Origin: Fibrobacter sp.
Lineage (GTDB): Bacteria; Fibrobacterota; Fibrobacteria; Fibrobacterales; Fibrobacteraceae
Direction of reading: 5' to 3'
NCBI GenBank assembly: GCA_017412605.1
Contig: JAFPWY010000013.1
Location: forward strand, 1-64,000
Length of the DNA: 64,000 bases
Part shown: in pieces, positions 1 to 17,410 of the stretch
Position numbering within the stretch: the stretch's first letter is position 1
Layout of the letters: each line of letters starts with the position of its first letter
Made by a program: the position numbers and the translations under genes
The notes under the pieces: model-generated
Told to the model about the DNA's origin: nothing
Databases searched by the model: none
The model's input: the letters and a program-made list of their open reading frames with translations, nothing else

Positions 1-2
1 AT

Positions 3-287
3 GGGGACACCCTTCTCGAAATCCAAAAGGAAGAAAACAGCTTCTTGCCGTCACAAAAGAAACTTGACAAGCTTTATGGCGATTTACGGCTATACAATCA
101 GCTGACAAAGAATGCTGTCGCGGCTCAAAAGGGCGATAAAATGATGTCGCCCCAGGAATACATGCAGGCTTTGAACCAAAACATCATTATCAATGTGGAT
201 TCCAACGGCAAGGCTGTCGTCGAAACCGACAAGGGCAAGCCGCCCAAAGTCAGCGGACGAAAAACGACACCGGGATGGGGGGCATAA
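3..287 (+). CDS. 3' end of a phage tail gene, probably tape measure (partial)
   Basis: This is the end of a gene entering from the left edge: the frame is open from base 3, has no start in the window and stops at TAA 285-287. About 94 hydrophilic residues are visible, with NIIINVDSNGKAVVETDKG near the end and a Pro/Gly-rich tail. No domain can be named from this fragment. In Mu-type phages the gene directly upstream of the circularisation/tail gene is the tape measure protein, which is the positional guess here. The stop overlaps the next start as TAATG, so translation of the two genes is probably coupled. Confidence 0.5.
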   Translation, partial: GDTLLEIQKEENSFLPSQKKLDKLYGDLRLYNQLTKNAVAAQKGDKMMSPQEYMQALNQNIIINVDSNGKAVVETDKGKPPKVSGRKTTPGWGA

Positions 288-1564
288 TGGCTGAAGAAAA
301 AATTCCAATGCTTGGCCCGTGGAAGCTTCGGCTGGAGTCGATTGGCGACGAAATCTCTCACGCTATAGCCGAAACTAAATACCCTTACAAGAACGGGGCC
401 GATCTCGAAGACATGGGCGTTGAACCTGAAACGCTCAAGTTCTCTGGTGTTTTGATCAATGACGAGTATGACAGAAACTATACCGAGCTGAGAAATTGGT
501 TCCTATCGATTTTCAAAGCGCCAGTCTTGCTGGTACATCCCAAGCATGGCGCGGTTACAGGCTACCCCAAGAACGTATCATTCAGTAATGACCGTCGCAA
601 GAGATATGCCGCATTTACATTTGATTTTGTGGTAGCGCATGTTCAGGACGATATCCAGAGCTATACGGACCCGTATGACGCCAATTTCGAAGAAACACAG
701 GCTCTCAATTTGGAAGTCCAGGAGAGTGTCGCCGTATCGATGCAACAGACCGGCGTTCCCGACATTCCCGGTTCTTCGGACTGGTCGCTTATCGATGTTT
801 GGGGCTCATTAGGCGATGCTGCCCGCAGCTTTGGCGAAGCGACAGACAAAGCCATGGGGCAACTCCTGGGAACAATTGAATCCATAAAGGCCCCTATCGA
901 TGCAATCAATACGACCATCGATTATATGGACTCGCTATCAGGAACCTTGACAAAGGCTATCCAGGAATGCTGCGATTCTTTCGTGACACTTGCCAGAAAG
1001 GCCGGTTCCAACAAGGGCAAATCCAGGGCATCTACCGCCACCTTGGTCACTAACGCTTCATCGATGTTGGCGTCCCTTTATGGTGCCCCCGCAAGCGTTC
1101 GGGCTGCATTTGCGACCCTTGCTGCCGCTACTGTCGCTACGGAGACCGCCAAGCAGATTTCTGATGACGAGAAAAAGATGGGCGAATCTATTGCGGCTGA
1201 ACGAGTCGCCATTGACGATGCCGAAGGCCGCGAACTAGCTTCGGAAAGTGAACCGTATCTGCTTTCCACCGATGAACTTGAGGATACGTTAGCCTTGGCA
1301 AGGGAGTTCATCCAACAGGTTCTTCCGCAGGCAGTAAGCCCCTACAGGCTCAAGAAAATGGCTGCAACGCTGTCGGATGCGGTACTTCGTATCAAGCTGG
1401 AATACATGACCACCAAGACAATCAACGTGACCCACGAAACACCGCTCCACAAGATTGCCCTGGACAACAAACTGAATTATAAGGCGGCTGAACGCCTTTG
1501 CGCATTGAATAACGCCAAGAATCCCACGTTCATGAAAGGCGAGGTGCTTGTCTATGCAGAATGA
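287..1564 (+). CDS. Mu gp43/N-like tail protein (DNA circularisation N-terminal domain)
   Basis: A 425-residue virion protein of the Mu gp43 family, annotated in many phages as DNA circularisation protein and placed in the tail/baseplate hub. The family domain covers about residues 8-130 (GPWKLRLESIGDEI, HPKHG..TGYPKNVSFSNDRR, AAFTFDFV). The middle is alpha-helical and Ala/Ser-rich. The last 45 residues (TPLHKIALDNKLNYKAAERLCALNNAKNP..MKGEVLVY) read like a LysM-type domain. The start was set at ATG 287, overlapping the upstream stop behind GGGATGGGG; ATG 275 is possible but less well placed. It overlaps the next gene by 11 nt. Role is inferred from family and gene order. Confidence 0.8.
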   Translation: MAEEKIPMLGPWKLRLESIGDEISHAIAETKYPYKNGADLEDMGVEPETLKFSGVLINDEYDRNYTELRNWFLSIFKAPVLLVHPKHGAVTGYPKNVSFSNDRRKRYAAFTFDFVVAHVQDDIQSYTDPYDANFEETQALNLEVQESVAVSMQQTGVPDIPGSSDWSLIDVWGSLGDAARSFGEATDKAMGQLLGTIESIKAPIDAINTTIDYMDSLSGTLTKAIQECCDSFVTLARKAGSNKGKSRASTATLVTNASSMLASLYGAPASVRAAFATLAAATVATETAKQISDDEKKMGESIAAERVAIDDAEGRELASESEPYLLSTDELEDTLALAREFIQQVLPQAVSPYRLKKMAATLSDAVLRIKLEYMTTKTINVTHETPLHKIALDNKLNYKAAERLCALNNAKNPTFMKGEVLVYAE

Positions 1565-2549
1565 TGAAGTCCTCTTGCTTGTGGAGCACGCCCACGCAGA
1601 TAAGTTCGTAAGCTACACGATCGATGCGGACCTCTATTCCCCGGAAGGCTCATTCTCGTTCGACTGCGCTTCTAAGTACGAAGTGAACAAGGGCGATTCC
1701 TGCGAAATTTTTGTTAATCGCAAACGCGTGATGAAGGGTCTTGTCGATTCCGTGCGTCGTTCTCTGTCTCGAAGCGGGCCAAAGCTGGAAATCGAGGGCC
1801 GTTCCGTCGCGTCCGTCCTGGCAGACTCCAGCGTGACAAACTTCGGAACTTTGCCGACTACCTTGCCCGCACTAGCTGAAAAGCTGGTGCGCGACCTTCC
1901 GTTTATCTCCAGGAAGGATTTTGTTTTCAAATCGGGCTCCGATAAAGTCAAGGTCAAAAGAAAGTTTGTGGAACTTTCTCCGGGCGACAGCGTTTTCGAT
2001 GTCCTCAAGAAGGCGGCAAATTCGCAAGGCTTCCTGTTCTGGGCGTCTCCCGAAGGCGAACTGGTCTTTGACAAGCCTGTTGAACGAGGCAAGGCTGATT
2101 TCAAGATCCATGCCTTTGAAAATGGCGAGGAAATGGACTATATCGAAGGCTCTGTCACCGAAACATTGAACGGTCAGCACTCGCTTATCAAGGTTATCGG
2201 CGAAAGCCAGGACGATAGCGACATCAAGTATGTAGCCGCCTCGGTCAAAAATGACGATTTCCCGTTCTATCGCCCTCTTGTGGTAAACTGGAACGAGAAC
2301 GAGGGCCCTGCCAAGAAAACCGCAGAACTTCAGCTGGCAACGGAAAAGGCTTCCGCAATCCAGCTCGAATACACGATGCCCGGGCACTCGCAAAACGGTA
2401 TTCCCTGGACAATCAACGCCTTTTGCGACGTAGAGGACCATTACAACGGTGCTGTTGACTCGTATCTGATTAAACGTCGCACGTTCACGCTCTCCAGGAG
2501 TGAGGGCAAGCGCACCCGCCTTGAATTACAGCCCGGAGGCTCGTTATGA
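1554..2549 (+). CDS. Mu gp44/P-like baseplate hub protein (late control D family)
   Basis: A 331-residue protein matching the Mu P (gp44)/phage late control gene D family, which forms the ring-shaped hub between tail tube and spike. The visible architecture fits: an N-terminal beta-domain (residues 1-80, with FSFDCASKYEVNKGDSCEIFVN), a hub domain with LSPGDSVFDVLKKAANSQGFLFWASPEGELVFDKP (about 145-180), and a C-terminal beta-rich part ending KRTRLELQPGG. ATG 1554 is chosen because GAGGTG lies 7 nt upstream; an in-frame TTG at 1548 is less likely. The gene overlaps gp43 by 11 nt and ends in an ATGA overlap with the spike gene. Confidence 0.8.
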   Translation: MQNDEVLLLVEHAHADKFVSYTIDADLYSPEGSFSFDCASKYEVNKGDSCEIFVNRKRVMKGLVDSVRRSLSRSGPKLEIEGRSVASVLADSSVTNFGTLPTTLPALAEKLVRDLPFISRKDFVFKSGSDKVKVKRKFVELSPGDSVFDVLKKAANSQGFLFWASPEGELVFDKPVERGKADFKIHAFENGEEMDYIEGSVTETLNGQHSLIKVIGESQDDSDIKYVAASVKNDDFPFYRPLVVNWNENEGPAKKTAELQLATEKASAIQLEYTMPGHSQNGIPWTINAFCDVEDHYNGAVDSYLIKRRTFTLSRSEGKRTRLELQPGGSL

Positions 2550-3010
2550 TGAAATTTTTCACCAGTTTGGTTACCAGCTGCAAGGATGTGGCAGGCAAGC
2601 TCCGCAGTATCAGCGGCAAGGCTAACGGTATCGAATTTGAAGGCCGTCAGATGATGCAGCATTTTGGCTTTATCAGCATTCCCAAGGCCGGTGAGCGTTG
2701 CCTTTTCCTGCAATTCGGCAATGTCGTCATCGCGGTTGCAAGCGACGGCAAGGACCATCCCGCCGTAAAGGAAGGCGAAACGGCCATTTACCGCGAAAAG
2801 GCACACTATATCATCCTCAAGGATGACGGCACCATAGCCATCAAGGCGGATGGCGGCGTCGATGTCGATGGCGACCTGCGCGTGAACGGCGAAGTGAGCG
2901 ACAAGGTGGGTAAGCTCTCCAAGCTGCGCGATAATTACAACCTGCACACCCATGTGGGCAACCTCGGTGCTCCTACTTCACCGACGGACAAACAGGATAC
3001 GGGGGCGTAA
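2546..3010 (+). CDS. Mu gp45-like baseplate spike protein
   Basis: A 154-residue cell-puncturing spike (gpV/Mu gp45 family). The N-terminal half is an OB-fold (residues about 25-75, GFISIPKAGERCLFLQFGNVVIAVAS). The second half changes to short beta repeats (IKADGGVDVDGDLRVNGEV), and the tip carries the sequence NLHTHVGNLGAPTSP. The HxH pair at the apex is the known iron-binding motif of Mu and P2 spikes, and here it is HTH. The start at 2546 overlaps the previous stop (ATGA) and has GGAGG 6 nt upstream. Length is close to the Mu protein, slightly shorter. Confidence 0.85.
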   Translation: MMKFFTSLVTSCKDVAGKLRSISGKANGIEFEGRQMMQHFGFISIPKAGERCLFLQFGNVVIAVASDGKDHPAVKEGETAIYREKAHYIILKDDGTIAIKADGGVDVDGDLRVNGEVSDKVGKLSKLRDNYNLHTHVGNLGAPTSPTDKQDTGA

Positions 3011-3520
3011 ATGCTTGACCTGGACACTCTCGATTCCGAATTTTCCCGGATTGTCAAGTCTGCCGACGGCAAGACAAGCGTGGCTCCCCAGCTTGCCAAA
3101 GCATACGACGATTATGCCAAGGGCGGCGTCATCCTCGGTGCCGACCTTTCTGCTGGCGGCGACAAGTCGCTGCTTGAAAGCGCCTTTACGGTACTTGACC
3201 CGTCTAGCGGCACACCCGCCAACATGGCCGCCAAGCTCTGTGCTTATTGGCAGGGGCTCCCGAAGCCTGGAATCCCGTCCCACGGTGGTGTGGCTGTGGT
3301 TTCGGTCGTTCCGACTTTTGCGGCGGTCCAGCCTGCTGTTTTGACGGTCATCACGAATTTGGTAAAAGAGCAAGCCGCTTCCAAGCAGGAAGTTCAAAAG
3401 CCATACAAGAAGCTTTTTGGGGCCATTGAAACGGTCTTGAAAACCGCTATTTGTACCGTGACTGAAACCATGCCCACGACACCGCCCAGCCCGTCACCTT
3501 TCCCGGAGACCTTACAATGA
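3011..3520 (+). CDS. phage protein of unknown function between spike and gp46
   Basis: A 169-residue protein that I do not recognise. It starts on the base after the spike stop codon, with GGGGG 5 nt upstream, and overlaps the next gene by 4 nt, so it belongs to the tail operon. The N-terminal two thirds are mixed alpha/beta with LDSEFSRIVKSADGKTS and a central hydrophobic stretch (GGVAVVSVVPTFAAVQPAVLTVITNLV), and the end is rich in Pro and Thr (TMPTTPPSPSPFPE). Mu has no gene between gp45 and gp46, so this is an added cargo or structural gene of this phage lineage. No function is proposed. Confidence 0.7.
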   Translation: MLDLDTLDSEFSRIVKSADGKTSVAPQLAKAYDDYAKGGVILGADLSAGGDKSLLESAFTVLDPSSGTPANMAAKLCAYWQGLPKPGIPSHGGVAVVSVVPTFAAVQPAVLTVITNLVKEQAASKQEVQKPYKKLFGAIETVLKTAICTVTETMPTTPPSPSPFPETLQ

Positions 3521-3840
3521 CTACAGACCAGATCAAAGAAGAGGTTCAGCTTTCGCTTACCGTGGCAAAAGGTTCATTTTACAAGAAACCTGAATTTGGC
3601 CACCGTTTCAAAGAACTTGCCCGTGAAGTGGCATCCGAAAACACCAGGAGCAAAGCCGAAACTTATGCCATCGAGGCACTAAAGTGGATGCTGGACTACA
3701 AGCACCTTAGAAGCGTAGAATCGACGGCAACCTATGCCGATTCCGACAAGCTCCAGTTGCATGTGGTATGTGTCGCATACAATGGCGACGTGATTGAATT
3801 TAAGCGTTTTGTGGAGGTTGGCGATGTCCGTAACAGTTGA
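3517..3840 (+). CDS. Mu gp46-like baseplate wedge protein (gp25/GpW family)
   Basis: A 107-residue protein of the Mu gp46 family, the homologue of the T4 gp25/P2 W baseplate wedge component that starts sheath assembly. Features supporting this are its small size, the position directly before baseplate J, and the pattern FGHRFKELAREV..ENTRSKAETYAIEALKWMLDYKHLRSVE followed by two C-terminal beta-strands (KLQLHVVCVAYNGDVIEFKRFVEV), which resembles the W fold. The ATG overlaps the upstream stop by 4 nt. Its end overlaps the baseplate J start by 17 nt. Confidence 0.75.
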   Translation: MTTDQIKEEVQLSLTVAKGSFYKKPEFGHRFKELAREVASENTRSKAETYAIEALKWMLDYKHLRSVESTATYADSDKLQLHVVCVAYNGDVIEFKRFVEVGDVRNS

Positions 3841-5029
3841 TCAAATCTTGCAGCGCATGATTGTCGATGCGAAAAACTACAACCCGACTATCAAAATTAG
3901 CCAGGGAACGGAAAATTATATCCGTTTTGCGGCCGCTGCATCTGCCATCTGGGGCCTCTACAAGCAGATGGACTGGACCCTTGATCAGATTTTCCCGACT
4001 ACGATGAACCAGGAGAGCCTGGAACAGTGGGCAAACGACCGTGGGCTTGACTACAGCAATCTGACCGCAAGCGAGCTCCTGACGCTCATTTTGTCGTATC
4101 TTCGTAACCCGAAGAGCGGCGGCAAGCCTAGTGATTACGAACGCTGGGCCTTGGAAGCGTCTTCTACCGGCAAGGCTATTGGGCTCGAATCCTCGATGAT
4201 TACCGGGAATATGCCCAATTTGAGTGCCGCCAATGCCGTCAAACCGCACGATCGCGAAGGCGTCGCCTTTGCCTGCGGTACGGACGACACGGGCAAATAC
4301 ATGGTCATCGACTTGGCTTCGTCCAAGCAGATTGTCGGCGTTGGCCTTGGCTTCATTACCAACAGGCCTGCATCCTTCAGCGTGTTTACTTCTGACGACG
4401 GTCAGTCTTGGACACGCAAGGGCAAAGTCGACACCGCCTACTGGTGGGCGATGGTTGAGTTTAGCGAAGTTTCTGCACGGTACGTCAAGTTCGAGCTCGA
4501 GGAAATCGAGGCCATCGAATCATGGCAACTCGAAGAACTGAACGAGGTCAAGTGTTTCGGCGTCGAAATCTATTCGCCAGCCACCATGAACGAGGCTCCT
4601 TCCAGAGCCCGCTGCCTAGACAATCACTACGGCATAGGCACCGTGCTCATGCTGGTCGGCCCCAGGTCGCTATCGATGCGCTGCTGCGAGGCCATCCGGG
4701 CGAAGTGCGAATACGAAGGCCCCGTCGCACCTCGTGAAATCTGGGCAAATGTCCCAACCGAACCAGTTCTTTCCCTGCGTGTCACGGTACAAGGATTGCA
4801 GAATATGAACGAAGAAACATTCCGGGAAGACGTTGCCAAGTATTTTGCCGCCCTTGAACCAGGAGACCTGTTTATTCCTGCCCAGATTGTGGTCTATGTC
4901 CTTAAAAATGGTGGAACCAACGCCACGATCGATGTTTCTCAGAATGGCGGAGACTACCAGGAACAGACAGACGCTATTCCGTCTGGAAAAACAGAACAAT
5001 TTACTCTCGGTGACCTGGTGGTTCAGTAA
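3824..5029 (+). CDS. Mu gp47-like baseplate J protein with inserted discoidin-like domain
   Basis: A 401-residue baseplate J (gp47) protein. The usual J core is split: residues 1-114 (SLEQWANDRGLDY, KPSDYERWALEAS) and residues about 258-401 (SRARCLDNHYGIGTVLMLVG, IPAQIVVYVL). Between them lie about 140 extra residues, containing KYMVIDLASSKQIVGVGLG, SFSVFTSDDGQSWTRKG and SARYVKFELEE. This is the signature order of an F5/8 type C (discoidin) galactose-binding-like domain. The start ATG 3824 has GGAGG 9 nt upstream and lies inside the end of gp46. The insertion would place a carbohydrate-binding-like module on the baseplate wedge; that role is inference. Confidence 0.85.
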   Translation: MSVTVDQILQRMIVDAKNYNPTIKISQGTENYIRFAAAASAIWGLYKQMDWTLDQIFPTTMNQESLEQWANDRGLDYSNLTASELLTLILSYLRNPKSGGKPSDYERWALEASSTGKAIGLESSMITGNMPNLSAANAVKPHDREGVAFACGTDDTGKYMVIDLASSKQIVGVGLGFITNRPASFSVFTSDDGQSWTRKGKVDTAYWWAMVEFSEVSARYVKFELEEIEAIESWQLEELNEVKCFGVEIYSPATMNEAPSRARCLDNHYGIGTVLMLVGPRSLSMRCCEAIRAKCEYEGPVAPREIWANVPTEPVLSLRVTVQGLQNMNEETFREDVAKYFAALEPGDLFIPAQIVVYVLKNGGTNATIDVSQNGGDYQEQTDAIPSGKTEQFTLGDLVVQ

Positions 5030-5631
5030 TGGCAGTCAATCCCTTTGAAAGCAGACACTACAGTGCCCTTACGCAGCTCTATCCGCTCCAGATGGATGCG
5101 GAAGAATATGCCGTAGCCAAGGAGTTTGACAGAGCCCTGGAAAGCGCCGATGCCGTCTACCGTGAAATCTTTCCTGGTTCAGCAATAACGACTCTCGAAC
5201 GGTGGGAAAACCTTTACAAATTAGGCCATTCTGGGTCGTTAGAAGCACGTCGCCAGGCTCTTTTGGAGGCTATCAACAGGGAATCAGGCATCGCCGAACG
5301 CCATTACAAGGCGCTGGCGGCAGCTATCGGCTATACTATCGATATCACGAAACCGCCCCGGATATTCCGTGCGGGAGTCAGCAGGGCGGGCTTCGAAGTG
5401 TACGACCCTGACGAACAATATATATGGACAGTCACCTGCAACCGGCCCGAATCGGAATGTTCCCTGCTGGTCCGTACCCTGGAAGCTCATAAAATACCTT
5501 TCACGTTCATCAGGTGGAACCTGATACCCGATAACGGCAGGGTTATCCTGGAATCCGGCGGATTCCTCCTGCTGGAAAGCGGTGGCTACCTGTTACTTGA
5601 AAACGACAACCAAATTTTAGTGGAGAACTAG
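5029..5631 (+). CDS. Mu gp48-like tail protein (DUF2313/YmfQ) with octad-repeat tail
   Basis: A 200-residue protein of the Mu gp48/YmfQ family (DUF2313), a baseplate component that attaches the fibres. The family pattern is visible: YSALTQLYPLQMDAEEYAVAKEFDRALE, TTLERWENLYKL, SLEARRQALLEAIN, and AAIGYTIDIT. The last 35 residues depart from Mu and form eight-residue repeats (RVILESGG, FLLLESGG, YLLLENDN, QILVEN), suggesting a short beta-helical stem. The start overlaps the baseplate J stop (TAATG). The following fibre gene starts 4 nt downstream of the stop. Confidence 0.8.
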   Translation: MAVNPFESRHYSALTQLYPLQMDAEEYAVAKEFDRALESADAVYREIFPGSAITTLERWENLYKLGHSGSLEARRQALLEAINRESGIAERHYKALAAAIGYTIDITKPPRIFRAGVSRAGFEVYDPDEQYIWTVTCNRPESECSLLVRTLEAHKIPFTFIRWNLIPDNGRVILESGGFLLLESGGYLLLENDNQILVEN

Positions 5632-5634
5632 ACG

Positions 5635-8163
5635 ATGGCAGGAACATTAGACAAAAAGATGTCCCAGCTGGGCGGCTCGACCAAAAAAGAAGCAATCCAG
5701 TCGAACGGTGCATTGATCGGCTTTGCCGGGCAGGACAATTTCACCATCAAGGTTGACGACCTCACCGATGTCTATTTCGGCGACTTGTCAACATCCTGGG
5801 AGGATATCGCACGTGCGCAGGCGGCAGGAAAACTCGTGTATTTGCGCTTTGAAATTCCGGGTTTAATCACAGTCGTTGTACCCGTAAAAACCGTATTTCC
5901 GACACTAGAAAAACTCAATTCTATGTTGCCGTCAATGGTTGCTGCAAAAAAAAGCCAGTTGATGGCGGAATTAGACGAACTGAATGAAAGATTGACCGAG
6001 GCTGGATATGACTCCTGGACAGAGTCGGATATCGATTCCTTCATGAATGGCTCAATGGACCTCCAAAAAGTCAACCAGTTGCGGGAAGTTACCTATGAAG
6101 ATCTCTTTGATGCCGAGAATTATGCCGAATACTGTCGAAAAAACTTCCCATCTTCCGTTTCGATGGACGACTATATTGACCTCGCGGCAACAGGCGGCCT
6201 GAACCAAGTTTCATCCCTTGACAGTCCCAATATCAATGTCGATGTAGACATCACCATAGATTCGCTGGCTAGAATCGGCATCGGTCTGTGCTATCGCCCG
6301 AATCTCCCGTTTGTTACGCCGACATACTTTGCCATGGGAATGCCTGGAATCTACTGCGCACGGAAAAATTACGTTGAAGAACCGCTTCGCGGAGCCAATG
6401 ATATTGGGGGAATTGCTTCCGGGATTTTCAACGGCGATGTGATATTCGAGGTTGCGGTAGGAATGTCTGTTGAACTCAAGGATGCCAATGATCCGGAAGG
6501 TCTTGTTTTGGATCTTGGTGGCACGACGACAAATATGGTCATTGATGCGGAAACCTTGGATGCGTCTGATTTTTCCGGCACTTTGGCAATTCTTGGAGCG
6601 TATGCCGGAATGATTGATGTTGATGCCATATTTGGTATTATCAATGATTTGAAGGTGACCATTACCGAAGAGCTGTCATTCAAGGCCGTGATGAATCTGC
6701 TCCGTAACGGTTGGGAAATCTATCTAGTGGATTTACAAGGGCATAACGAAGTGCTCATACCGGGGAAAATAGGATATTTCGGCATGGGGGTTGAGTTCAG
6801 CCGGCATGAGCTAGATAAAAGTGGGGCAATGATAAGAGATTCCTACAATCTCATGATGTTCGATGATTGGGATGGCTGTATTTACTTAGGAAATAACAGC
6901 GACATCTTCACTCGTGGAGCCATAGAGATTAAAGATGACATGACCTTTGGTGAACTATATTCTGCTGCAAGTGATGGAGCCTATGGAGTAATTCTTGATG
7001 GCTATGGTCCCATATGGGTAGAATTGAGGACAACCTGGTTTTGTGGGACCGAGGCGGTAATAATGACTGCCCGCCTTGGTAATCGCATTACGGAAGCAAT
7101 CGCTGTTGAAGTTTACGACGAGATCAATGATGATTATTATGCGTACTTCATGCATATAACGGAAGATATCTGTTCTCCAGTAATTATCGATTTTTCTGAG
7201 TTGAATGGTTCAGACGATGTTTACGGAGCAGCCAGCAGTATATCTGATCTTTACCCAAATCACAAACTGATCGACAATGAAGGCGGTGAAGTGATTGATG
7301 TTGATCAAGTATGGGTTGAGCGCGAGATCGATAATGAAATTCATATGGTTCAAGCTAACGCAGCTTTGATAACGGCCCATTACTCTGGTGAAGATTCCGA
7401 TGATTTTTACACGTTTTCGGTCGGTACTGACGGTCCCGTCGACGGTGAGTTCCATCTAAGTTATGAACGGCAAATAGGAATTGACGCCAGTTCAATAAAT
7501 CCGGGAAGTTCTGGTCGGCTTGACTTGGATGACTCCATTTATTACGAATACTATGATGAATCGGAAAGCGGCTGGATCCGTGATGACGTAATGGGGCTGC
7601 TCGTACTTTTGGAAGAAAACGACTTCAAAGGGCTTTCCATCGACATCGGTTCACGAGTTTTGTCTTATGCAGGATTGGACTTTGGTGGTGGTTATACGAC
7701 AAGATTGCTATTCCAAGGCGTCTATAAAGGAGTTCTCTACACTGCGGACATCGCGATAAACTATAACGATGTGCACGAAGGCCTTATCTCTGTGCATCAG
7801 CCCGTCCGGCTCGAAAAGGCCTGGACGTCGTACACGTCCGAACCGGATGCGGCGTCGTACACTCTCGACTGCATGCACAAGGCAATGTACAATGTCGCAC
7901 TGGATAACGGGACGACCACGGCGCTCACGGTGGCCGCGCCGGCGGTATATTCCGGGGCACTCGCAGACGAACTGGACAAGCCGATTCACCAGGACGAGCC
8001 TGTGCAGACAAAATGCGTGATTACCAAGGACTCGACGGCAGGCAATACGACGCTCGGCATCACCGGAGTTACCGTAGGCGCTGGACCGTACACCCTCGAA
8101 CCGTCTAAGAAGTACGTTCTCGACATCTTTGGACCTGTCGCAGAGCTTCACGAAGTTCAATAA
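5635..8163 (+). CDS. large tail fibre / receptor-binding protein
   Basis: An 842-residue protein in the place of the phage tail fibre gene. The first 120 residues look like a fibre-attachment domain (MSQLGGS..AIQSNGALIGFAGQDNFTIKVDDLTDVYFGDLSTSWEDIARAQAAGKLVYLRFEI). The middle (about 190-710) is very acidic and Gly/Asp/Tyr-rich, consistent with a beta-structured shaft. The last 125 residues are Thr/Ala/Pro-rich, with GNTTLGITGVTVGAGPYTLEPSKKY. Base composition changes with these zones: the middle is AT-richer than the two ends, which suggests a modular exchange of the receptor-binding section. No enzymatic motif is seen. The receptor is unknown. Confidence 0.65.
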   Translation: MAGTLDKKMSQLGGSTKKEAIQSNGALIGFAGQDNFTIKVDDLTDVYFGDLSTSWEDIARAQAAGKLVYLRFEIPGLITVVVPVKTVFPTLEKLNSMLPSMVAAKKSQLMAELDELNERLTEAGYDSWTESDIDSFMNGSMDLQKVNQLREVTYEDLFDAENYAEYCRKNFPSSVSMDDYIDLAATGGLNQVSSLDSPNINVDVDITIDSLARIGIGLCYRPNLPFVTPTYFAMGMPGIYCARKNYVEEPLRGANDIGGIASGIFNGDVIFEVAVGMSVELKDANDPEGLVLDLGGTTTNMVIDAETLDASDFSGTLAILGAYAGMIDVDAIFGIINDLKVTITEELSFKAVMNLLRNGWEIYLVDLQGHNEVLIPGKIGYFGMGVEFSRHELDKSGAMIRDSYNLMMFDDWDGCIYLGNNSDIFTRGAIEIKDDMTFGELYSAASDGAYGVILDGYGPIWVELRTTWFCGTEAVIMTARLGNRITEAIAVEVYDEINDDYYAYFMHITEDICSPVIIDFSELNGSDDVYGAASSISDLYPNHKLIDNEGGEVIDVDQVWVEREIDNEIHMVQANAALITAHYSGEDSDDFYTFSVGTDGPVDGEFHLSYERQIGIDASSINPGSSGRLDLDDSIYYEYYDESESGWIRDDVMGLLVLLEENDFKGLSIDIGSRVLSYAGLDFGGGYTTRLLFQGVYKGVLYTADIAINYNDVHEGLISVHQPVRLEKAWTSYTSEPDAASYTLDCMHKAMYNVALDNGTTTALTVAAPAVYSGALADELDKPIHQDEPVQTKCVITKDSTAGNTTLGITGVTVGAGPYTLEPSKKYVLDIFGPVAELHEVQ

Positions 8164-8179
8164 AACCAAAAGGAGATAT

Positions 8180-8542
8180 ATGATGGCTCAAGAAAAAAAA
8201 GACCAAATTGCCGAAGGGTCGAAAAACGATAAGGCTAAGAAAAACATTCGCCCGTTCAAAAAGATGTCCAGGGAAGAGGTTGTTGCTGCCAATACAGCGG
8301 TTATCAACGGCTTGCTTGGTCGTGCGGTCAATTCTTTCGAAAAATTGGACAAATTGGGCAAAATCCCCGATGAAATCGCTCGCAAGAACGGTTCTCGACA
8401 TAAGGTCAACCGTGAAGGTCTCCGCGATTTCTGCAAGCGTTTTCGTGAAGGGCATGAAAAAAGGATGAATGTCATGCGCGAAATGAAGGCAAAATCGGGG
8501 CTCAAAACCGAAGTAAAGGCCAAAGAGGCCGATGTAAAATAG
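8180..8542 (+). CDS. small basic phage protein, unknown
   Basis: A 120-residue, strongly basic, helical protein (many Lys/Arg/Glu, no Cys or Trp), with Lys-rich ends and a central segment SREEVVAANTAVINGLLGRAVNSFEKLDKLGKIPDEIARKNGSRHKVNREGLRDF. It lies between two fibre genes. Two ATGs stand in tandem at 8180 and 8183 behind AGGAG (8171-8175); the second gives the better 7-nt spacing. In other phages a small gene at this place often encodes a fibre-assembly chaperone, but no known chaperone motif is visible and I do not assign one. Confidence 0.6.
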   Translation: MMAQEKKDQIAEGSKNDKAKKNIRPFKKMSREEVVAANTAVINGLLGRAVNSFEKLDKLGKIPDEIARKNGSRHKVNREGLRDFCKRFREGHEKRMNVMREMKAKSGLKTEVKAKEADVK

Positions 8543-8562
8543 CCGTTCAAAAGAGGTTTTAA

Positions 8563-9957
8563 ATGGATAAAAAGCTCATTAAATCGGGCGATCCTATTCC
8601 GCCGGAATTTTTCAACGCCTTGCAGGACCTGTCGTTTACAAAGGGTCCTGGCGAAGTTGGTGGTTTGCCGAATCCTCCGGGAAAAATGGAGTTTTTCGAG
8701 GCAACCGGCGGCGGCTCTGTGGACGTTTCCTCCGCTAATGGTGTGGGCGCCGTGATTCTTAATGTGGGTAGCCAAATTTCTACGGATAAAGAAACCTTGA
8801 CCATTACGGGCTGCAACCCGGCGATGGGAAGATGCCCTGGTGTCATATTTGTCATCCCACGAGGCGCAGCCTATGAGCTGGACGTAGTCTTGCCATGCAC
8901 GGCGGCTTCGACGGAAACGATTACACTGCATGCAGGCTGTGTGGGAATTTTCACATTCCAGTATTATCAGGGCAACACGAACTGGAAATGTTGTGAAATC
9001 AAGCCCCCGGAATATGACGTAAGAATGAAGTTTTTCGAGGCAGCCGGCGACGGCTCTGTAGATATATCCTCCGCTTGTGACGGGGCTGCAATGATCCTTC
9101 ATGCTGGGGACCAGGCTTCTACGGCTAAAGAAACCTTGACCATTACGGGCTGCAACCCGGCGATGGGAAGATGCCCTGGTTTCATAACCGTCGTCCCACG
9201 AGGCGCAGCTTATGAGCTGGACGTAGTCTTGCCATGCACGGCGGCTTCGACGGAAACGATTACATTGCATGCAGGCTGTGCGGGAATTTTTACGTTCCAG
9301 TACAACAATGGTAACGTGAGCTGGAAATGTTTCGAAACCAACCGCAGTGATTGCCCAGCATTTTTCAAGGAAATCAGTGTTGACGGCATAATTCACGTTT
9401 TAAACGGCAATGATACTTTCGATATCAAATGTGACATGAATTCTGCGAACGCCTGGATCCCGGAGCTAGTAGTTGGAGATTTAGACACATACATGATAGT
9501 CAGCGTGCCTAAATTGCACGTCTATAAACAGTCGACCTTTGAAAAGGATGTCACTATTAAGGCGGACGCTGTCATTGAAAAAACGCTCACAGTGAACAAG
9601 TCTATCGATGCCGGGGAGAATATACGGACCCCCTTCTTTGTCATTGGAAGGAATGTCCCAGGCGCATTGACATCGATAGGGGACCCCGAATCCGGCACCG
9701 CAACGTATCTTCAATGGCAATTGAAGTCGGCCTGGGAGATGAATGAAGTCAAAAAAATCTTCAATGACACCGGCGCCACCGTCGAACAGGCTGTTTTTGT
9801 ACCCGATAGTTTGCCTAGACTTGGACAACCGGCCATTACTAGCCGATTGAATACAATCTATATTCCGGCGAGAACGTACAGGGAGTTTACCTGTGTTGGT
9901 TCCCATACGCAAAACGGCGTTGAATATGCAGTATTAGCTCCATCAAGTGATCAGTAA
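8563..9957 (+). CDS. tail fibre protein with internal 113-residue duplication
   Basis: A 464-residue fibre-like protein, the last gene of the tail cluster. After a short start (SGDPIPPEFFNALQDLSF), residues 42-154 and 155-about 265 are tandem copies of one module (MKFFEA..G.GSVD.SSA ... TLTITGCNPAMGRCPG ... RGAAYELDVVLPCTAASTETITLHAGC.GIFTFQY..GN..WKC). The module is beta-rich with conserved Cys residues and may be a receptor-binding head. The remainder contains KDVTIKADAVIEKTLTVNKSIDAG, resembling beta-helical shaft repeats. GAGG lies upstream of ATG 8563 (AAGAGGTTTTAA). Binding role is inferred. Confidence 0.65.
   Translation: MDKKLIKSGDPIPPEFFNALQDLSFTKGPGEVGGLPNPPGKMEFFEATGGGSVDVSSANGVGAVILNVGSQISTDKETLTITGCNPAMGRCPGVIFVIPRGAAYELDVVLPCTAASTETITLHAGCVGIFTFQYYQGNTNWKCCEIKPPEYDVRMKFFEAAGDGSVDISSACDGAAMILHAGDQASTAKETLTITGCNPAMGRCPGFITVVPRGAAYELDVVLPCTAASTETITLHAGCAGIFTFQYNNGNVSWKCFETNRSDCPAFFKEISVDGIIHVLNGNDTFDIKCDMNSANAWIPELVVGDLDTYMIVSVPKLHVYKQSTFEKDVTIKADAVIEKTLTVNKSIDAGENIRTPFFVIGRNVPGALTSIGDPESGTATYLQWQLKSAWEMNEVKKIFNDTGATVEQAVFVPDSLPRLGQPAITSRLNTIYIPARTYREFTCVGSHTQNGVEYAVLAPSSDQ
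8686..9345 (+). repeat. 339-bp tandem duplication inside the fibre gene
   Basis: Unit 1 starts at 8686 and unit 2 at 9025, an exact 339-bp (113-codon) period. The central parts 8791-8945 and 9130-9284 are nearly base-identical, while the unit starts and ends have drifted. This points to a recent duplication or gene conversion in the middle of the module. Confidence 0.9.
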
Positions 9958-9964
9958 GATATGA

Positions 9965-9997
9965 AAAGAGGACCTGATAGGTCCTCTTTCTCTTTTT
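9965..9997 (+). terminator. rho-independent terminator of the tail operon
   Basis: A perfect 10-bp stem (AAAGAGGACC / GGTCCTCTTT) with a TGATA loop is followed by CTCTTTTT. It starts 8 nt after the last fibre gene and ends phage late transcription just before the host junction. Confidence 0.9.
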
Positions 9998-12806
9998 GTC
10001 TCACGCAAGGCGACAAATTGTCCCATTTAAAGCGCGCCGTTATACCGGTGTCGATAACGGTGCCGAGCTCGAAAACATCTATGTGAAATACGAAATCCAT
10101 GGTGCGGACTATGTGGGCGGCGTTGCCGGTAAAAAGACAAGCGGCTCTATTGTGAGGAGTGCGTCGAGGTATATCGTTGACGGCGACGAATACGTTGGTG
10201 GCCTGTTCGGTAACCTGGACCAGGCGACTATGGAAGATTGTTTTTCGATTAGCCGTGTGACAGGCTCAAAGTATGTGGGCGGTTTGGTCGGTGCGTCCAA
10301 GAGTGCGGCTGTGAAGAATTCCTTTGCCGCCGGTGCTGTTGATGGGACTTCTAAGTGGGGCGGCATTGTTGGCGACGATGCAAAATCCACGTACACATCG
10401 GTGTATTACGACAGCATCCCTTGGCTTGTGAACGTTACGGCTGCTGGCGAACTTCTCAATTCGCGGCAGATGGTCAAGAAAGAAACCTACAAGAACTGGG
10501 ATTTCGAAAAGACCTGGAGAATTGCTCAGGATACAACGTATCCTTACTTTGCCTGGCTTCGCAGTAATAGCTATCTAGCGAAAACAATGGATGAGAGAAT
10601 CCGTCCCAACCTGGATTATGATACGACGATGATGCAGATGGCGGGATCTGGCACCAAGGAAGACCCGTTCCTTGTCAAGACGTATAGCGACCTTAAATCT
10701 ATCGGGTTCGGCAAGTACAAGTTGTCGGCTGTGTACCAGCTGGCTAACGATATCGATGCCTCGGCGTCTGCGACGGAAGTTATTGAGGGAAATGCCGCTA
10801 AGGGATTCAAGCCTATTGGGGAAATAGAGTATTTTGGACGCTTGTTCGGGGATTACGGCGGGCAAGATACGGAACCGTTCTCCGGGAAATTCTACGGTAA
10901 CGGGTTTAGCATTGACAATCTCACCGTGATGTACGATAGATATAATCCGCTAGGATTCATTGATACGCTGGCGCCATCTGGCGTGATTGAAAATCTCACG
11001 TTCAAGAATTATACCGTCGCGAACATGTCTGGGGGAGGCGTAGTTGGGACGAACTACGGTGTTATCAAGAACGTCCATGTGGAGGCGACCTTTGATTCTA
11101 CATACAGTAGCGCTGGAATTGCCTTCTACAATGGGGGCTCTATCGAAAGCTGTTCGTTCAAGGGCGTGCTCAACGGCGAAAGTTCTTTTGCCGGTATGGC
11201 CGTTGTCAACGACGGCAAAATAACCAAAGCGAAGGTGGATGTTAGCGGAACCATGAGCAGCTTTGCGGGTGTTTCGCTGATTAATGGCGGACATATCGAC
11301 AAGGCCACCGTGACTGCGAATGTGGAGGCTGAATGGGGCTCCATGGGTGGCATTGTTGGGCTGAACAGAAGTTCTGGGCGTGTCAGCGGAAGTTCTGCTG
11401 AGGTGGATATTCACTGTGCAAATCGCAGGAGTGGCAGCGTCTCGTATTACAAGGGTTTGTATCAGGAAGAGACTCTAGAGTTCGATGGTATAGGCGGAGT
11501 CGTTGCGATTGATAGCGGAAAGGTCTCGGGTTCTACTGCAACAGGTTCTATTGACGCTCCGGGTTCTATTAATGTTGGGGGTTTGATAGGTGCCGCATAT
11601 GGCAAGGATATAGACGGGGCCCATGCGTCTGTGAATTTGACGGCTAGCCTTTACGTGGGTGGATTGATTGGGTACAATGGTGTCAATGTATCTAACAGCT
11701 ACGCTACGGGTGAAGTCAAGTCTATGGCTGGCTACTCTGGAGGTTTTGTCGGCAGGAACGAGGGCGTAATCGAAAGTTCGTTTGCGACGGGAAATGCGGA
11801 CGGGGCTGCCGGTTTTGCAGGAATCAACTACGGAACGATCAAGCAATCCTATTCTACGGGCGATGTCTATGGAAAGGCGAGCTTTGTCGAGATCAACCAG
11901 CTCGTGATCGAGGACTGCTATTCGGTGGGTGACGTGTATTTCCAAGGCAGGGTCGCGGAAAATGCGGGCTTTATTTCGACTAATGGCAACTCGACCGCAG
12001 TCAGGGGCTATGCCACGGGCGCTGTTATACATGAAGATGTGCGCTATTGCGTTGGATTGCCGAAAATCTCGCAACCTTCGGATGAGTTCTATTACCTTGC
12101 TGAGAACTGCATTGACACCATGGCATGGGAAGGGGGCCTTTCGCATGACAAAATGCTTCTGAAGAAATCATACTCCAGCTTTGATTTCAAGTCGGTGTGG
12201 GATATCGATAATGGCGCGACTTATCCGGTGCTCCGCAACATGCCGAACGTGCCATTTGTGGAGGAGAAGATTCTGGCTTACGAAAATGGCAAGTCGCTTG
12301 TGAAGAACGTGCGTAAGGAATTGATTAAAGCGTCCTACGTGTCGGATTCGAGTGCGACAAAGGTCTTGTGGCTCGATTCTACGAGTGCTTCGCTGCTTGA
12401 TTCTTTGGAAAAAGTAAAAAATGTATCTGGAAAGTATGAAGTTTCTTACCGAGTGGGTATGATATATATGTCAGATACTATTTGGAGTGGAATTGCCAAG
12501 GCAGAAATATGGATTGACACGAAAACGGATGTTCGCAAGCCGGTCCCGGTGTATGCCGGTTCCTTCGGTGCGGCGTTCCGTGGCGGCAATGTGGCTCTCC
12601 GTTTTGAACTCCATTCCGATGCGGCTGTGAAGTTCTTGCTGCTCGATATGCAGGGGCGTGTCTTGAAATCGATCGATCTTGGACGTCGCGCTGCAGGGGC
12701 CTATTTCGAGACACTTGCTGCCGATGGCGTGGCCCGTGGCCGCTATGTTGGCGTGCTACAGGTTGGTGGCGGGGTTGCCGAAAGAACCTTAATGTTCCAA
12801 AAGTAG
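9996..12806 (+). CDS. GLUG-repeat surface protein, 5' end lost at prophage junction
   Basis: The open frame (up to 936 residues from TTG 9996) encodes a host surface protein with many GLUG motifs (for example DYVGGVAGKKTSG, KYVGGLVGASKSA, YSGGFVGRNEGV). It ends in a Fibrobacter/T9SS-like sorting domain (KFLLLDMQGRVLKSIDLGRRAAGAYF... RGRYVGVLQVGGGVAERTLMFQK). There is no signal peptide, no Shine-Dalgarno and no plausible start: recognisable GLUG sequence begins abruptly near codon 16, a few dozen bases after a phage terminator. I read this as the 3' fragment of a gene cut by the Mu-like insertion, so it is probably not functional, although the frame itself is intact. Confidence 0.75.
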   Translation: MSHARRQIVPFKARRYTGVDNGAELENIYVKYEIHGADYVGGVAGKKTSGSIVRSASRYIVDGDEYVGGLFGNLDQATMEDCFSISRVTGSKYVGGLVGASKSAAVKNSFAAGAVDGTSKWGGIVGDDAKSTYTSVYYDSIPWLVNVTAAGELLNSRQMVKKETYKNWDFEKTWRIAQDTTYPYFAWLRSNSYLAKTMDERIRPNLDYDTTMMQMAGSGTKEDPFLVKTYSDLKSIGFGKYKLSAVYQLANDIDASASATEVIEGNAAKGFKPIGEIEYFGRLFGDYGGQDTEPFSGKFYGNGFSIDNLTVMYDRYNPLGFIDTLAPSGVIENLTFKNYTVANMSGGGVVGTNYGVIKNVHVEATFDSTYSSAGIAFYNGGSIESCSFKGVLNGESSFAGMAVVNDGKITKAKVDVSGTMSSFAGVSLINGGHIDKATVTANVEAEWGSMGGIVGLNRSSGRVSGSSAEVDIHCANRRSGSVSYYKGLYQEETLEFDGIGGVVAIDSGKVSGSTATGSIDAPGSINVGGLIGAAYGKDIDGAHASVNLTASLYVGGLIGYNGVNVSNSYATGEVKSMAGYSGGFVGRNEGVIESSFATGNADGAAGFAGINYGTIKQSYSTGDVYGKASFVEINQLVIEDCYSVGDVYFQGRVAENAGFISTNGNSTAVRGYATGAVIHEDVRYCVGLPKISQPSDEFYYLAENCIDTMAWEGGLSHDKMLLKKSYSSFDFKSVWDIDNGATYPVLRNMPNVPFVEEKILAYENGKSLVKNVRKELIKASYVSDSSATKVLWLDSTSASLLDSLEKVKNVSGKYEVSYRVGMIYMSDTIWSGIAKAEIWIDTKTDVRKPVPVYAGSFGAAFRGGNVALRFELHSDAAVKFLLLDMQGRVLKSIDLGRRAAGAYFETLAADGVARGRYVGVLQVGGGVAERTLMFQK

Positions 12807-12858
12807 GGTGGAAAAAAAGTCGCTGAACCGGGAGAGGTTTGTTTACGGCAAAAAAGGA

Positions 12859-12874: not shown

Positions 12875-12959
12875 CCCTTTTTATTACATAAAACTTGCAT
12901 TGGCAAGCCCCAAAAGACGAAAAATTTTGTAAAAAGAAGTTTACGCCATGTAATTTTTG

Positions 12960-12975: not shown

Positions 12976-12993
12976 TTTTGGAAACTTTGTTTG

Positions 12994-13075: not shown

Positions 13076-16000
13076 ATGAAAAAAATATTTACAGCAATGA
13101 TAGGCTTCGGTCTCGCCATGGCAGCGAACTCCTTCGCTATTTCCCTGGCAGATACGACTATACTTGGCAAGGACTATGCCAAGGTAACGCAATGCTCGGA
13201 CTTCAATACAGTCCGTGATTGGACGAAGAATGGCAAGATTGCCAATGTCATCGTGATGAATGACATTGACTGCGGTAACGCAGAATTCAAGCCTATTGGT
13301 CAGTCTGAATCGAAGGCCTTCGAAGGTACCTTTGATGGCAATGGAAAGACGATTTCCGGGCTGAAGATTGTACATAATGCTCAATATGGTGGTTGCTCTT
13401 GGAATGGTTGTCCTAATGAGGACTCTTATGCGGGCCTCTTTGGCGTGATTGGCAAAAAGGGTGTTGTCAAGAATATCACCATTAATAATTCCTCTGTGAC
13501 CGCCAAGTCGCAGTATGCCGGTGCCGTTGTTGGCTTGAACTACGGTGTCGTTGAAGGCGCCAAGACGACAGCATCTGTGAAGGTGACTTCTTCAAAGGAC
13601 CCTGAAAGTGTTGGTGGTGTCGGTGGCATTGCCGGTCGTAACGGTGGTTACGGCACGATGATTGGTTGCGAAAACCGCGCTACAGTATCGGCTGTGAACA
13701 TGGCTGGCGGTATTGCCGGTGCGAACACGGGCGCAATCAGTAATAGCATCAACCATGCCGCAGTTTCTGGCAAAATTGCTGGCGGTATTGTTGGTGGTTC
13801 TCATTATAGAACGGCTGATAGTGATATCACGCATGTTCCTGGCCGTATCGCTGTTTGCCAGAACCTTGGTTCTGTGAATGGCTCTACGTATGCAGGTGGC
13901 ATTGTGGGCGAAAATAAGGATGGCTCTATCAACAACTGCCGTAACGATGGCTCTGTTAAGGGTGGTATTGTTGGTGGTGTTGTCGGTTATACCCTTTTCG
14001 ATAATGATGGCCGTTACAGCTCTGGTAACTACACTGCCGTAGTCCTGAACTCCTTCAGCACGACGAACTCCGTTACCGGTACTACTGTGGGTGGCGTTGT
14101 CGGTAAAGTTGAAAACAAGAATAACAAAAATGCAAATTATTCTACGGTTGAGAACTGCTACTATGATTCTCAGGTTTTGTCGAGTGTCTCGAAGGCGGTT
14201 GGTTCGGATGACAAAAAATCCACGATTGAGACTGTCAAGGGCGAGACGACTGCCAACATGAACACCAATGACGATTTTGTTCGAGTTCTGAACACTCAGA
14301 ACGGCAAGATTGATTACACTTTTGTTTGGCTCTTCGAATCTGGCAATTATCCGGTGCTTGACTTCACTGGTTGCCAGGGCAACTACAAGATTACGTTCGT
14401 GGTTAATGGTAAGGTTACTCTCGAAGCAACGACCGTCAAGGGCAAGATTGCCGAAGCTACCGTGACCGATCCGAAGGTCTCCGGTGCTACCTTCAAGGGT
14501 TGGAAGGACGATCATGGTAACGTCCTCACTTCCAAGCAGGCTCAGGACAAGTTCTACTCTCGTAGCGTGACTTACAATGCCGTGCTGAACGAACTGGTTG
14601 AAATCACCTTCGTTACCGACTACGGTGTAGAATTGGCCAAGAAGTTCTTCGAAAAGGACTCCATGGTGTTCTACTACGACGAAGAAAACGACTCTGAAAT
14701 TCCGGCTGACCTCGAAACGGATTCCGCATCCTTCAAGTTCACGGGTTGGGACAGGCCGTTCGCTGCCGCTACCGAAAAGACGACTTACACGGCTCAGTTT
14801 GAAAAGATTGCCAAGACCTTCACGGTCAAGTTCTTTGTCCAGAGCGTTCCCTTCGGTGAAACGCAGACTGTTGCTTATGGCCAGAATGCTGAAGATCCGG
14901 GTGTTCCGTTTGTCGAAGGCTTCCGCTTTGACGGTTGGGATAAGGAATTCACGAATGTGAAGGATAATCTGGAAATTGACGCCAAGCTGACTGCAATGAC
15001 TCAGATCTGCTTCGTTTCGATTGACACCACTAAGTGTGACACTGTCCCTGTGGATACGACAATTATTATCAAGGAAGATCCGACTTCCAACGACTCGCTC
15101 ACTTGCGATGCCTGGTTGAATGGCGAAGTTGAACTCCATGTCGGTGACGAACTGACGGTTGCTCAGCTGACGACTCTCGAAGCCAAGTGCTCCGTGAACA
15201 TGTTCGACGTAATCTTCTACGTCCAGCAGAAGACCTACAACGAACAGAAGGTTGCTTATGGCCAGAATGCTGAAGCTCCGGCTGATCCGGTTGTCGAAGG
15301 CTACCGCTTTGATAGCTGGGACAAGGAATTCACGAACGTGAAGGCCAATTTGGAAATTAACGCCAAGCTGGTCAAGACCTATGACTTCTGCTACTACAAC
15401 CTTGAAGATGACCAGTGCAAAACTGTTGACGAAGGTACCGAAGTTGAAGTTCCGGAAGTTCCGTCCAGCGACTCGCTCACTTGCGATGCCTGGTTGAACG
15501 GCGAAGAAGTTGTTACCGGTTCTACGATTGTTGTTGAAGGCGACATTACGCTCGCTCCGCGTTGCGAAGTCCGCACGTTCGACGTGAAGTTCCTCGTCAG
15601 GGATTCTGTCATGAACGCTCAGGTCGTTGCCTACGCCGCTGCCGCTGAAACTCCGGCTGCCCCGGTTGCTGGTGATGTGGTCGCCTTCGAAGATGGCTTG
15701 TTCATCTTCAACAGCTGGATTGAAGACTACTCCAGAGTGACTGACGCCCTCGATGTGAATGCCGACATTTCTCCGGCTGTGGAAATCTGCTACACTGCCC
15801 TCGGTGACACGACTTGCGACACCACGAAGGTGGGTGATGAAATCAAGGTTGATACGCTCCCGGAAACTGTTGATACGGTTTGCGTTGATTGGCTCGTGGC
15901 TGACACGGTCTTCGTTGGTGAAACCCTCGTTGTTGGAACCGAAAAGGTTGTGTTCGTGGCCGATTGCCATGCTAAGGAACTGAACGTGAAGTTCCTCGTC

Positions 16001-17410
16001 AGGGATTCTGTCGTGGACAACCAGGTTGTTGCCTACAACGCCGCCGCTCAAGCTCCGGCTGCCCCGGTCGCTGGTGATGTGGTTGTCTTCGAAGATGGCT
16101 TGTTCATCTTCAACAACTGGATTGAAGACTTCTCCAACGTGACTGACAACCTCGACGTGAATGCCGACATTTCTCCGGCTGTGGAAATCTGCTACACTGC
16201 CCTCGGTGACACGACTTGCGACACCACGAAGGTGGGTGAAGAAATTAAGGTTGATACGCTCCCGGAATCCGCAGATACGGTCTGCGTTGATTGGCTCGTG
16301 GCTGACACGGTCTTCGTTGGTGAAACCATCGTTGTCGGAACCGAGAAGGTTGTGTTCGTGGCCGATTGCCGTGCTAAGGAATTCGATGTCAAGTTCGTCG
16401 CGTTCGACACCGTCCTCGTGGACAGCCAGCGCGTCGCTTACGGCACTGCCGCTGTCGCTCCGGATAGCCTCGTGCCGGTGTTCGAAGGCTACCGCTTCAG
16501 CGATTGGGATGCCGACTTCACCTATGTTGAATCCAGCATGGTTGTCAACGCCGTGTTCGATACCCTCGTGAAGGTGAACATCTCTGTCGACGTTGCTATC
16601 GGCAAGATCGATACTTCCTTCTACGTTCTCAAGGACACGACCTTCACTGGCCTCAAGTCCATGATTGATAGCCTCAGCGGTGAGTTCTTCGTCTGCGAAG
16701 ATATCACTGTCAACGGCGAAGCCCTTACGGATACAATCGTTGCTTCCGAAGATCTCGCTGTGACCGCTACCTGCGTTCTCATGACCCACACCATTACCTA
16801 CTATGTCGACGATAAGCTGATCCGTACGGAAGTCGTTGGTCATGGCAACAATGCCAAGGCTACCGAAGGCCCCGAAGTTGCCGGCAAGCGCTTCGTCAAG
16901 TGGGACAAGGACCTCCACAACGTTGTGGCCGACATCAAGACCAACGGTATCTACAAGGATATCGAAGTCGACACCATCAAGGTTGTTGCTAACGGCAAGA
17001 CGATCGATTCCATCATCGTCGCCAAGGGTGACTCTGTAGAATACAAGCTCCCGAAGATCAAGGACACCAAGGATAGCACGTTCAAGGGCTGGAAGGTCGG
17101 CGGCGAAGTTCTCGACGCTGGCGAAAAGATCATCGTCAAGTTCGGCGACAAGAAGATTATTGCTGACTTCGATTCCAAGACTGCTCTCCGCGCTACTCGC
17201 TCTATCGCAGCCTTCTCCATCCACAGCGAAAATGGTCAGCTCCAGGTGATTGGCGCCCGCATCGGCGACGAACTCACCGTGCTCGATCTCCAGGGTCGCG
17301 TGATCGTGAAGAAGCCTGTGCAGAACTCTGTCGAACTGGTCAGCGTTGCCAACCGCGGCAGCTTCCTGGTTCGCGTGGGTGCTCAGACCAAGCGCGTCAC
17401 CGTCCGCTAA
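13076..17410 (+). CDS. secreted GLUG and InlB-type repeat protein
   Basis: A 1444-residue secreted surface protein. A signal peptide (MKKIFTAMIGFGLAMAANSFA) is followed by a GLUG region to about residue 440 (FEGTFDGNGKTISGLKI, GGIAGRNGG, GGIVGENKDG). Then come InlB/Listeria-Bacteroides type beta-grasp repeats to about 1360 (FKGWKDDHGN, YRFDSWDKEFTNVKANLEI, KRFVKWDKDLHNV). The end is a sorting domain (ENGQLQVIGARIGDELTVLDLQGRVIVKK...GSFLVRVG). Two 134-residue repeats (from 15584 and 15986) are almost identical. The start has AGGG 6 nt upstream. It is a probable adhesin exported by the type IX route; neither ligand nor route is shown directly. Confidence 0.85.
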   Translation: MKKIFTAMIGFGLAMAANSFAISLADTTILGKDYAKVTQCSDFNTVRDWTKNGKIANVIVMNDIDCGNAEFKPIGQSESKAFEGTFDGNGKTISGLKIVHNAQYGGCSWNGCPNEDSYAGLFGVIGKKGVVKNITINNSSVTAKSQYAGAVVGLNYGVVEGAKTTASVKVTSSKDPESVGGVGGIAGRNGGYGTMIGCENRATVSAVNMAGGIAGANTGAISNSINHAAVSGKIAGGIVGGSHYRTADSDITHVPGRIAVCQNLGSVNGSTYAGGIVGENKDGSINNCRNDGSVKGGIVGGVVGYTLFDNDGRYSSGNYTAVVLNSFSTTNSVTGTTVGGVVGKVENKNNKNANYSTVENCYYDSQVLSSVSKAVGSDDKKSTIETVKGETTANMNTNDDFVRVLNTQNGKIDYTFVWLFESGNYPVLDFTGCQGNYKITFVVNGKVTLEATTVKGKIAEATVTDPKVSGATFKGWKDDHGNVLTSKQAQDKFYSRSVTYNAVLNELVEITFVTDYGVELAKKFFEKDSMVFYYDEENDSEIPADLETDSASFKFTGWDRPFAAATEKTTYTAQFEKIAKTFTVKFFVQSVPFGETQTVAYGQNAEDPGVPFVEGFRFDGWDKEFTNVKDNLEIDAKLTAMTQICFVSIDTTKCDTVPVDTTIIIKEDPTSNDSLTCDAWLNGEVELHVGDELTVAQLTTLEAKCSVNMFDVIFYVQQKTYNEQKVAYGQNAEAPADPVVEGYRFDSWDKEFTNVKANLEINAKLVKTYDFCYYNLEDDQCKTVDEGTEVEVPEVPSSDSLTCDAWLNGEEVVTGSTIVVEGDITLAPRCEVRTFDVKFLVRDSVMNAQVVAYAAAAETPAAPVAGDVVAFEDGLFIFNSWIEDYSRVTDALDVNADISPAVEICYTALGDTTCDTTKVGDEIKVDTLPETVDTVCVDWLVADTVFVGETLVVGTEKVVFVADCHAKELNVKFLVRDSVVDNQVVAYNAAAQAPAAPVAGDVVVFEDGLFIFNNWIEDFSNVTDNLDVNADISPAVEICYTALGDTTCDTTKVGEEIKVDTLPESADTVCVDWLVADTVFVGETIVVGTEKVVFVADCRAKEFDVKFVAFDTVLVDSQRVAYGTAAVAPDSLVPVFEGYRFSDWDADFTYVESSMVVNAVFDTLVKVNISVDVAIGKIDTSFYVLKDTTFTGLKSMIDSLSGEFFVCEDITVNGEALTDTIVASEDLAVTATCVLMTHTITYYVDDKLIRTEVVGHGNNAKATEGPEVAGKRFVKWDKDLHNVVADIKTNGIYKDIEVDTIKVVANGKTIDSIIVAKGDSVEYKLPKIKDTKDSTFKGWKVGGEVLDAGEKIIVKFGDKKIIADFDSKTALRATRSIAAFSIHSENGQLQVIGARIGDELTVLDLQGRVIVKKPVQNSVELVSVANRGSFLVRVGAQTKRVTVR
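15584..16387 (+). repeat. 402-bp tandem duplication in the GLUG/InlB gene
   Basis: Two adjacent 402-bp units (15584-15985 and 15986-16387) begin with GTGAAGTTCCTCGTCAGG and encode the same 134-residue block (FLVRDSV..., ISPAVEICYTALGDTTCDTT, VCVDWLVADTVFVGET) with few changes. A third, more divergent unit follows from 16388. Confidence 0.9.

Follow-up and report, generated by a model that had tools for sequence, protein, structure and literature searches.

A Mu-type prophage ends inside a GLUG-repeat surface-protein gene of Fibrobacter sp.

The locus and its features

The stretch of DNA analysed here (the window) covers the first 64 kb of contig C13 in a 3.53-Mb genome of Fibrobacter sp. consisting of 15 contigs. 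It opens inside a prophage and passes, at a single point, into a host gene for a surface protein with GLUG repeats, the 3' part of which lies in the window together with the next host gene. The features of the region are the following.

1..10044, forward strand: right-hand 10,044 bp of a Mu-type prophage, with the end of the tape-measure gene, baseplate genes and tail-fibre-like genes (PHROGs baseplate hub and wedge matches)
275..1564, forward strand: baseplate hub protein (phrog_184, E = 1.1e-27)
1548..2549, forward strand: baseplate hub protein (phrog_177, E = 2.3e-59)
8563..9957, forward strand: last phage gene, probably tail-fibre-like (judged from position only)
9965..9989, forward strand: intrinsic terminator closing the phage tail operon (hairpin, folding z)
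9996..10003, reverse strand: sub-terminal repeat TGAGACAA, 42 bp from the right end, a predicted and probable transposase-binding site (distribution of TGAGACA)
10018..10025, reverse strand: sub-terminal repeat TGGGACAA, starting 20 bp from the right end (comparison of phage ends)
10043..10044, no strand: right terminus of the prophage, last two bases TA (common ...GTTATA in about 20 insertions with different flanks; host homology from 10045)
10045..10049, no strand: CCGGT, presumed right copy of the 5-bp target duplication (exact 5-bp duplications of five relatives; CCGGT at the same place in the G017 orthologue)
10045..12806, forward strand: 3' part of the GLUG-repeat surface-protein gene, 919 codons and a stop, with start and presumed signal peptide removed (orthologous to the C-terminal half of the intact G017 gene)
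13076..17410, forward strand: next host gene, a large surface protein with GLUG/InlB-type repeats, collinear with relatives (Pfam Flg_new, Flg_new_2 and Glug; synteny)

The last phage gene has no family match in PHROGs or Pfam, and it contains a 300-bp direct duplication (8682-8981 and 9021-9320, 84% identical) of the kind found in modular or evolving tail fibres. Further upstream, a baseplate-J-like protein (3824-5026) carries an inserted F5/8 type C (carbohydrate-binding-like) domain, which possibly serves receptor binding on the fibre-degrading host. The phage terminator that the sequence-only reading had placed at 9965-9997 is recovered as a terminator-like hairpin with an 11-bp stem followed by a T-rich stretch (folding z = -3.88); two terminator-like sites were found against 0.5 expected in shuffled sequences.

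The right terminus of the prophage

The right terminus is base 10044, with host DNA from 10045 onwards, as indicated by two agreeing tests, the homology to orthologues and the comparison of phage ends. When the region 9700-10700 was used to query 41 genomes, its host gene was located in five other Fibrobacter species, the nearest orthologue being that of G017 (84% DNA identity to the window), and in four of the five the homology begins at 10045, give or take a base or two; the alignments of G005 and G021 start two bases past this position. Furthermore, in about 20 insertions of related phages, found in G006, G018, G017, G044, G048, G074 and several viral or genome contigs, phage sequence ends in the same ...GTTATA and is then followed by differing host sequence. 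The right end of the prophage therefore lies inside the GLUG gene, as the sequence-only reading had supposed, and interrupts it after the equivalent of about 1,000 codons. The terminus that the same reading had put at 10024 is 20 bp off and is ruled out, since the flanks diverge only past 10044; the TGGGACAATTTGTCGC on which it was based is the sub-terminal repeat that starts 20 bp in from the end and has its inner edge at 10024. One of the genome bins, G006, has the right end of the same phage three times, each at another site (L022, L023 and L025), a sign of recent transposition or of mixed strains.

The remainder of the prophage

The remaining 26,261 bp of the prophage form contig C14, which gives an estimated prophage length of about 36,349 bp. 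This contig starts in the tape-measure gene, about 44 bp from base 1 of the window when mapped on related phages (L049, L061, L062 and L064), and stops exactly at the phage left end, TAAGCCAAAGCGG (TAAGCC...), a position at which at least 11 related prophages switch from phage to host sequence. C14 carries the only Mu-type transposase of the genome (C14:18386-20335), which by its matches is a DDE transposase with a Mu C-terminal domain (rve, E = 8.8e-8; Mu-transpos_C, E = 2.4e-8; phrog_310, E = 7.4e-88). It is adjoined by a MuB-like AAA+ ATPase (C14:20642-21541; AAA_22, E = 8e-23; TniB, E = 6.9e-7; HTH) that matches the DNA transposition proteins of phrog_296 (E = 9.9e-77). The transposase gene, some 6 kb away from the left end, points towards it. 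Terminase and portal are encoded on the strand opposite to that of the tail genes.

Other genes of this part, seen in the L069/L070 regions, include a BRO-N protein beside the repressor (C14:17223-18176) and, at the left end of the phage (C14:24721-25907), ASCH and DUF3850 (RNA-binding-like) proteins. A left end 99% identical to that of C14 occurs in L140 (G063:C58, about 295-15982), where the left and right ends are only 15.7 kb apart and the flanks, ACGAA and GCGGC, do not match; L140 is either an internally deleted copy or a chimeric contig.

Phage ends, repeats and target sites

The phage begins and ends with TA (TA...TA, not TG...CA). At the left end TGAGACAA starts at base 20, matching the distance at which TGGGACAA starts on the right. 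Five copies of the 7-mer TGAGACA are present in the phage, each at 181 bp or less from an end, and the window's 54 kb of host DNA contain none; repeats of the form TGRGACA number four at the left end and two at the right, the outermost beginning at base 20 from each end. From this arrangement, the TGRGACA repeats are probable transposase-binding sites.

A 5-bp target duplication, expected from the sequence-only reading, proved to be the rule for this phage family. The five related prophages in which both ends are readable, each with TA at both phage ends, are flanked by exact duplications (CCGGT, GTCGC, CTCGT, TCTGC and AAGCG), and these are exactly 5 bp long, since the sixth base differs; in G018 the two ends come from separate contigs and were assigned to each other by their matching duplication. 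By analogy, the window probably holds one copy of a CCGGT duplication, of which only the right copy was assembled. Across 27 junctions the flanks differ, indicating integration at many unrelated sites, and the targets fit N-Y-S-R-N, reportedly the target rule of Mu, at 16 of the 27 sites as compared with a background of 15% (P = 1.7e-7). When the flanks of three relatives are rejoined, open frames of 614, 427 and 434 aa reappear, which argues that interruption of genes is usual for this phage family. An excess of lipoprotein genes among the insertions (5 of 17 sites) was not significant (P = 0.06-0.10).

The interrupted surface-protein gene

In the five related species the orthologues are uninterrupted and encode 1,872-2,150 aa (1,920 aa in G017, L017:6436-12198), the site equivalent to the junction lying about 3 kb into each gene. 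This comparison with relatives lacking the prophage at this site had been set beforehand as the test that could refute an interruption, and all five keep the gene at full length. The frame without a normal start that had been noticed downstream of the terminator is confirmed as a GLUG gene: it runs for 919 codons (10047-12803) and shows multiple Glug motifs (Pfam PF07581, E = 4.9e-19; E = 6.8e-21 for the intact G017 gene). Compared with G017, the remnant has no stop and no frameshift and a dN/dS of 0.18; since it has stayed open over its whole length at this ratio, the insertion is probably young.

The remnant lacks a signal peptide; the intact orthologues begin, as judged by eye, with signal-like hydrophobic stretches. 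An in-frame TTG at 9996 would open a frame of 936 codons, although expression from it is unlikely because it stands directly after the terminator and offers no export signal; a promoter scan of the forward strand found no outward promoter at the phage end that could read into the GLUG gene. The 3' remnant is probably silent, since its promoter, start and presumed signal peptide would lie beyond a 36-kb prophage and a terminator stands upstream.

A headless gene of this kind could also be an old truncation beside which the phage merely happens to lie, and the missing start and signal peptide would suit such an origin. We regard it as scarcely credible, since the junction coincides to the base with the phage terminus, five species have full-length orthologues, and the remnant is free of stops over 919 codons and has a dN/dS of 0.18. 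Only slightly more credence is due to the proposal that the phage enters and leaves the gene as a reversible on-off switch for the surface protein. Precise loss of the phage would indeed restore the gene, as the remnant is an intact open frame. However, Mu-type phages transpose replicatively and rarely excise precisely, and no mechanism of precise excision is visible here; related phages sit in many different genes and at many unrelated sites, the GLUG gene is free of insertions in all five other species examined, and lipoprotein genes are not significantly enriched. The switch suggested by the sequence-only reading is for these reasons very improbable.

As to the neighbourhood of the gene, in L017 (G017:C30) the interval between the two GLUG genes is occupied by paired TIGR02147-like regulators and FISUMP-type lipoproteins (named by resemblance) in variable clusters, which lie between conserved genes and vary in number among species.

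The missing 5' half and the order of contigs

The 5' half of the gene, which the sequence-only reading had expected at the left prophage end, was sought in the genome at DNA and protein level with its G017 counterpart; no orthologue turned up, only paralogues of at most 42% identity. The left copy of CCGGT with the left junction is likewise not in the assembly, C14 stopping at the phage left end. The last part of contig C15 corresponds to the upstream neighbourhood of the GLUG gene in G017, G013, G003 and G005, but the contig stops one gene earlier. At its very end a second GLUG-like gene begins, which in G005 is directly upstream and in G017 further upstream, and the rest of which is in no contig. 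C15 on the left and the window on the right are thus collinear with these four genomes around the GLUG gene, and this synteny of C15 with the upstream region of the relatives supports the order C15, C14 (reversed), C13. By comparison with G005, at least 6.4 kb are expected before the left phage end and are either unassembled or deleted. The missing 5' half would accordingly fall in an assembly gap between C15 and C14.

Ends of contigs of G000 share exactly 141 bp (C4/C6, C15/C6, C3/C5 and C11/C2), so the assembly looks like, and probably is, a metagenome assembly made with k = 141; for this reason the insertion may not be present in every cell. The stop of C14 exactly at the phage terminus suggests that several left flanks exist in the population. 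A metagenomic origin would also leave room for a chimeric join at the right end, which we nevertheless consider highly unlikely, because the break coincides with the phage terminus inside a collinear host region whose other side is bracketed by C15, and because a 141-mer graph needs reads that span the junction.

A simple insertion of the phage is likely, and a deletion next to its left end is possible. Deletions beside an end are a known by-product of Mu-type transposition, and the prophage could, after inserting, have driven one that took away most of the GLUG-like gene upstream together with the 5' half of the GLUG gene itself, so that C15 directly adjoins C14. The exact end of C14 at the phage left end, the absence at the end of C15 of any repeat that might have broken the contig, and the absence from every contig of the 6.4 kb or more expected between the two speak for this course. 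On the other hand, 141-bp overlaps of contig ends are typical of metagenome assemblies, in which small contigs often remain unbinned, and a stop at the terminus is also expected from several alternative left flanks in a population; on balance such a deletion is improbable, though less so than the other alternatives considered here. A search of IMG/VR with the left-junction pattern CCGGTTAAGCCAAAGCGG gave one match, L142, which was rejected as a chance match in the tape-measure gene of an unrelated phage, and the right-junction pattern gave no match there.

We conclude that a Mu-type transposable temperate phage of about 36.35 kb very probably integrated by transposition into a surface-protein gene of about 5.8 kb. 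Its transposase would have bound the TGAGACAA repeats and cut at the TA ends, which would then have been joined to the CCGGT target with a 5-bp stagger.

Comparison with known transposable phages

As a Mu-type (saltovirus-like) transposable phage, the prophage resembles phage Mu of Escherichia in its DDE transposase with Mu-transpos_C, its MuB-like ATPase, its contractile-tail baseplate genes and its size of about 36 kb, and also in the 5-bp target duplication, the N-Y-S-R-N preference, the scattered sites and the several sub-terminal repeats at both ends. It differs from Mu in its ends, TA...TA as opposed to TG...CA, and in the layout of its genes: the genes of classic Mu are directed away from the left end, whereas here the transposase gene reads towards that end from about 6 kb and terminase and portal oppose the tail genes. 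By transposase score the closest named phage is Bacillus phage BalMu-1, at a low 30.8% identity over 64% of the protein.

Ends of the TG...CA type have been described as general for Mu- and B3-like phages (PMC8705779), and the transposable phages of the D3112 group of Pseudomonas aeruginosa, to which the Fibrobacter phage is similar in being transposable, have TGT...ACA ends (PMC5977238) in place of TA...TA. Among the literature found, TA-ended transposable prophages are described only in Leptospira, where the WETA1 group makes 6-bp, B3/Tn552-like duplications (PMC8705779). Compared by description, this group shares with the Fibrobacter phages TA at both ends, a transposase with an ATPase, a similar size (38-40 kb) and many sites (PMC8705779), but its duplications are of 6 bp and those of the Fibrobacter family of 5 bp. 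As this exception had already been described (PMC8705779), TG...CA was not taken here as defining Mu-type phages. No paper on such a phage in Fibrobacter was found in the full-text literature, the coverage of which excludes subscription journals.

Significance

The insertion itself is ordinary, disruption of genes being usual for jumping phages. It is rather more probable that the Fibrobacter phages form a separate lineage, in which TA...TA ends go together with a 5-bp staggered cut of the Mu type and a reversed layout of the early genes, than that they do not. If this is true, ends of the TA type would have arisen or spread outside Leptospira as well and would not depend on the 6-bp cut of B3/Tn552. 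As a by-product, both ends are now placed to the base for a family of transposable phages spread through the genus Fibrobacter; together, transposase, ATPase, ends and target rule make up the set needed to test these phages as tools for mutagenesis in this genus of fibre-degrading gut bacteria.
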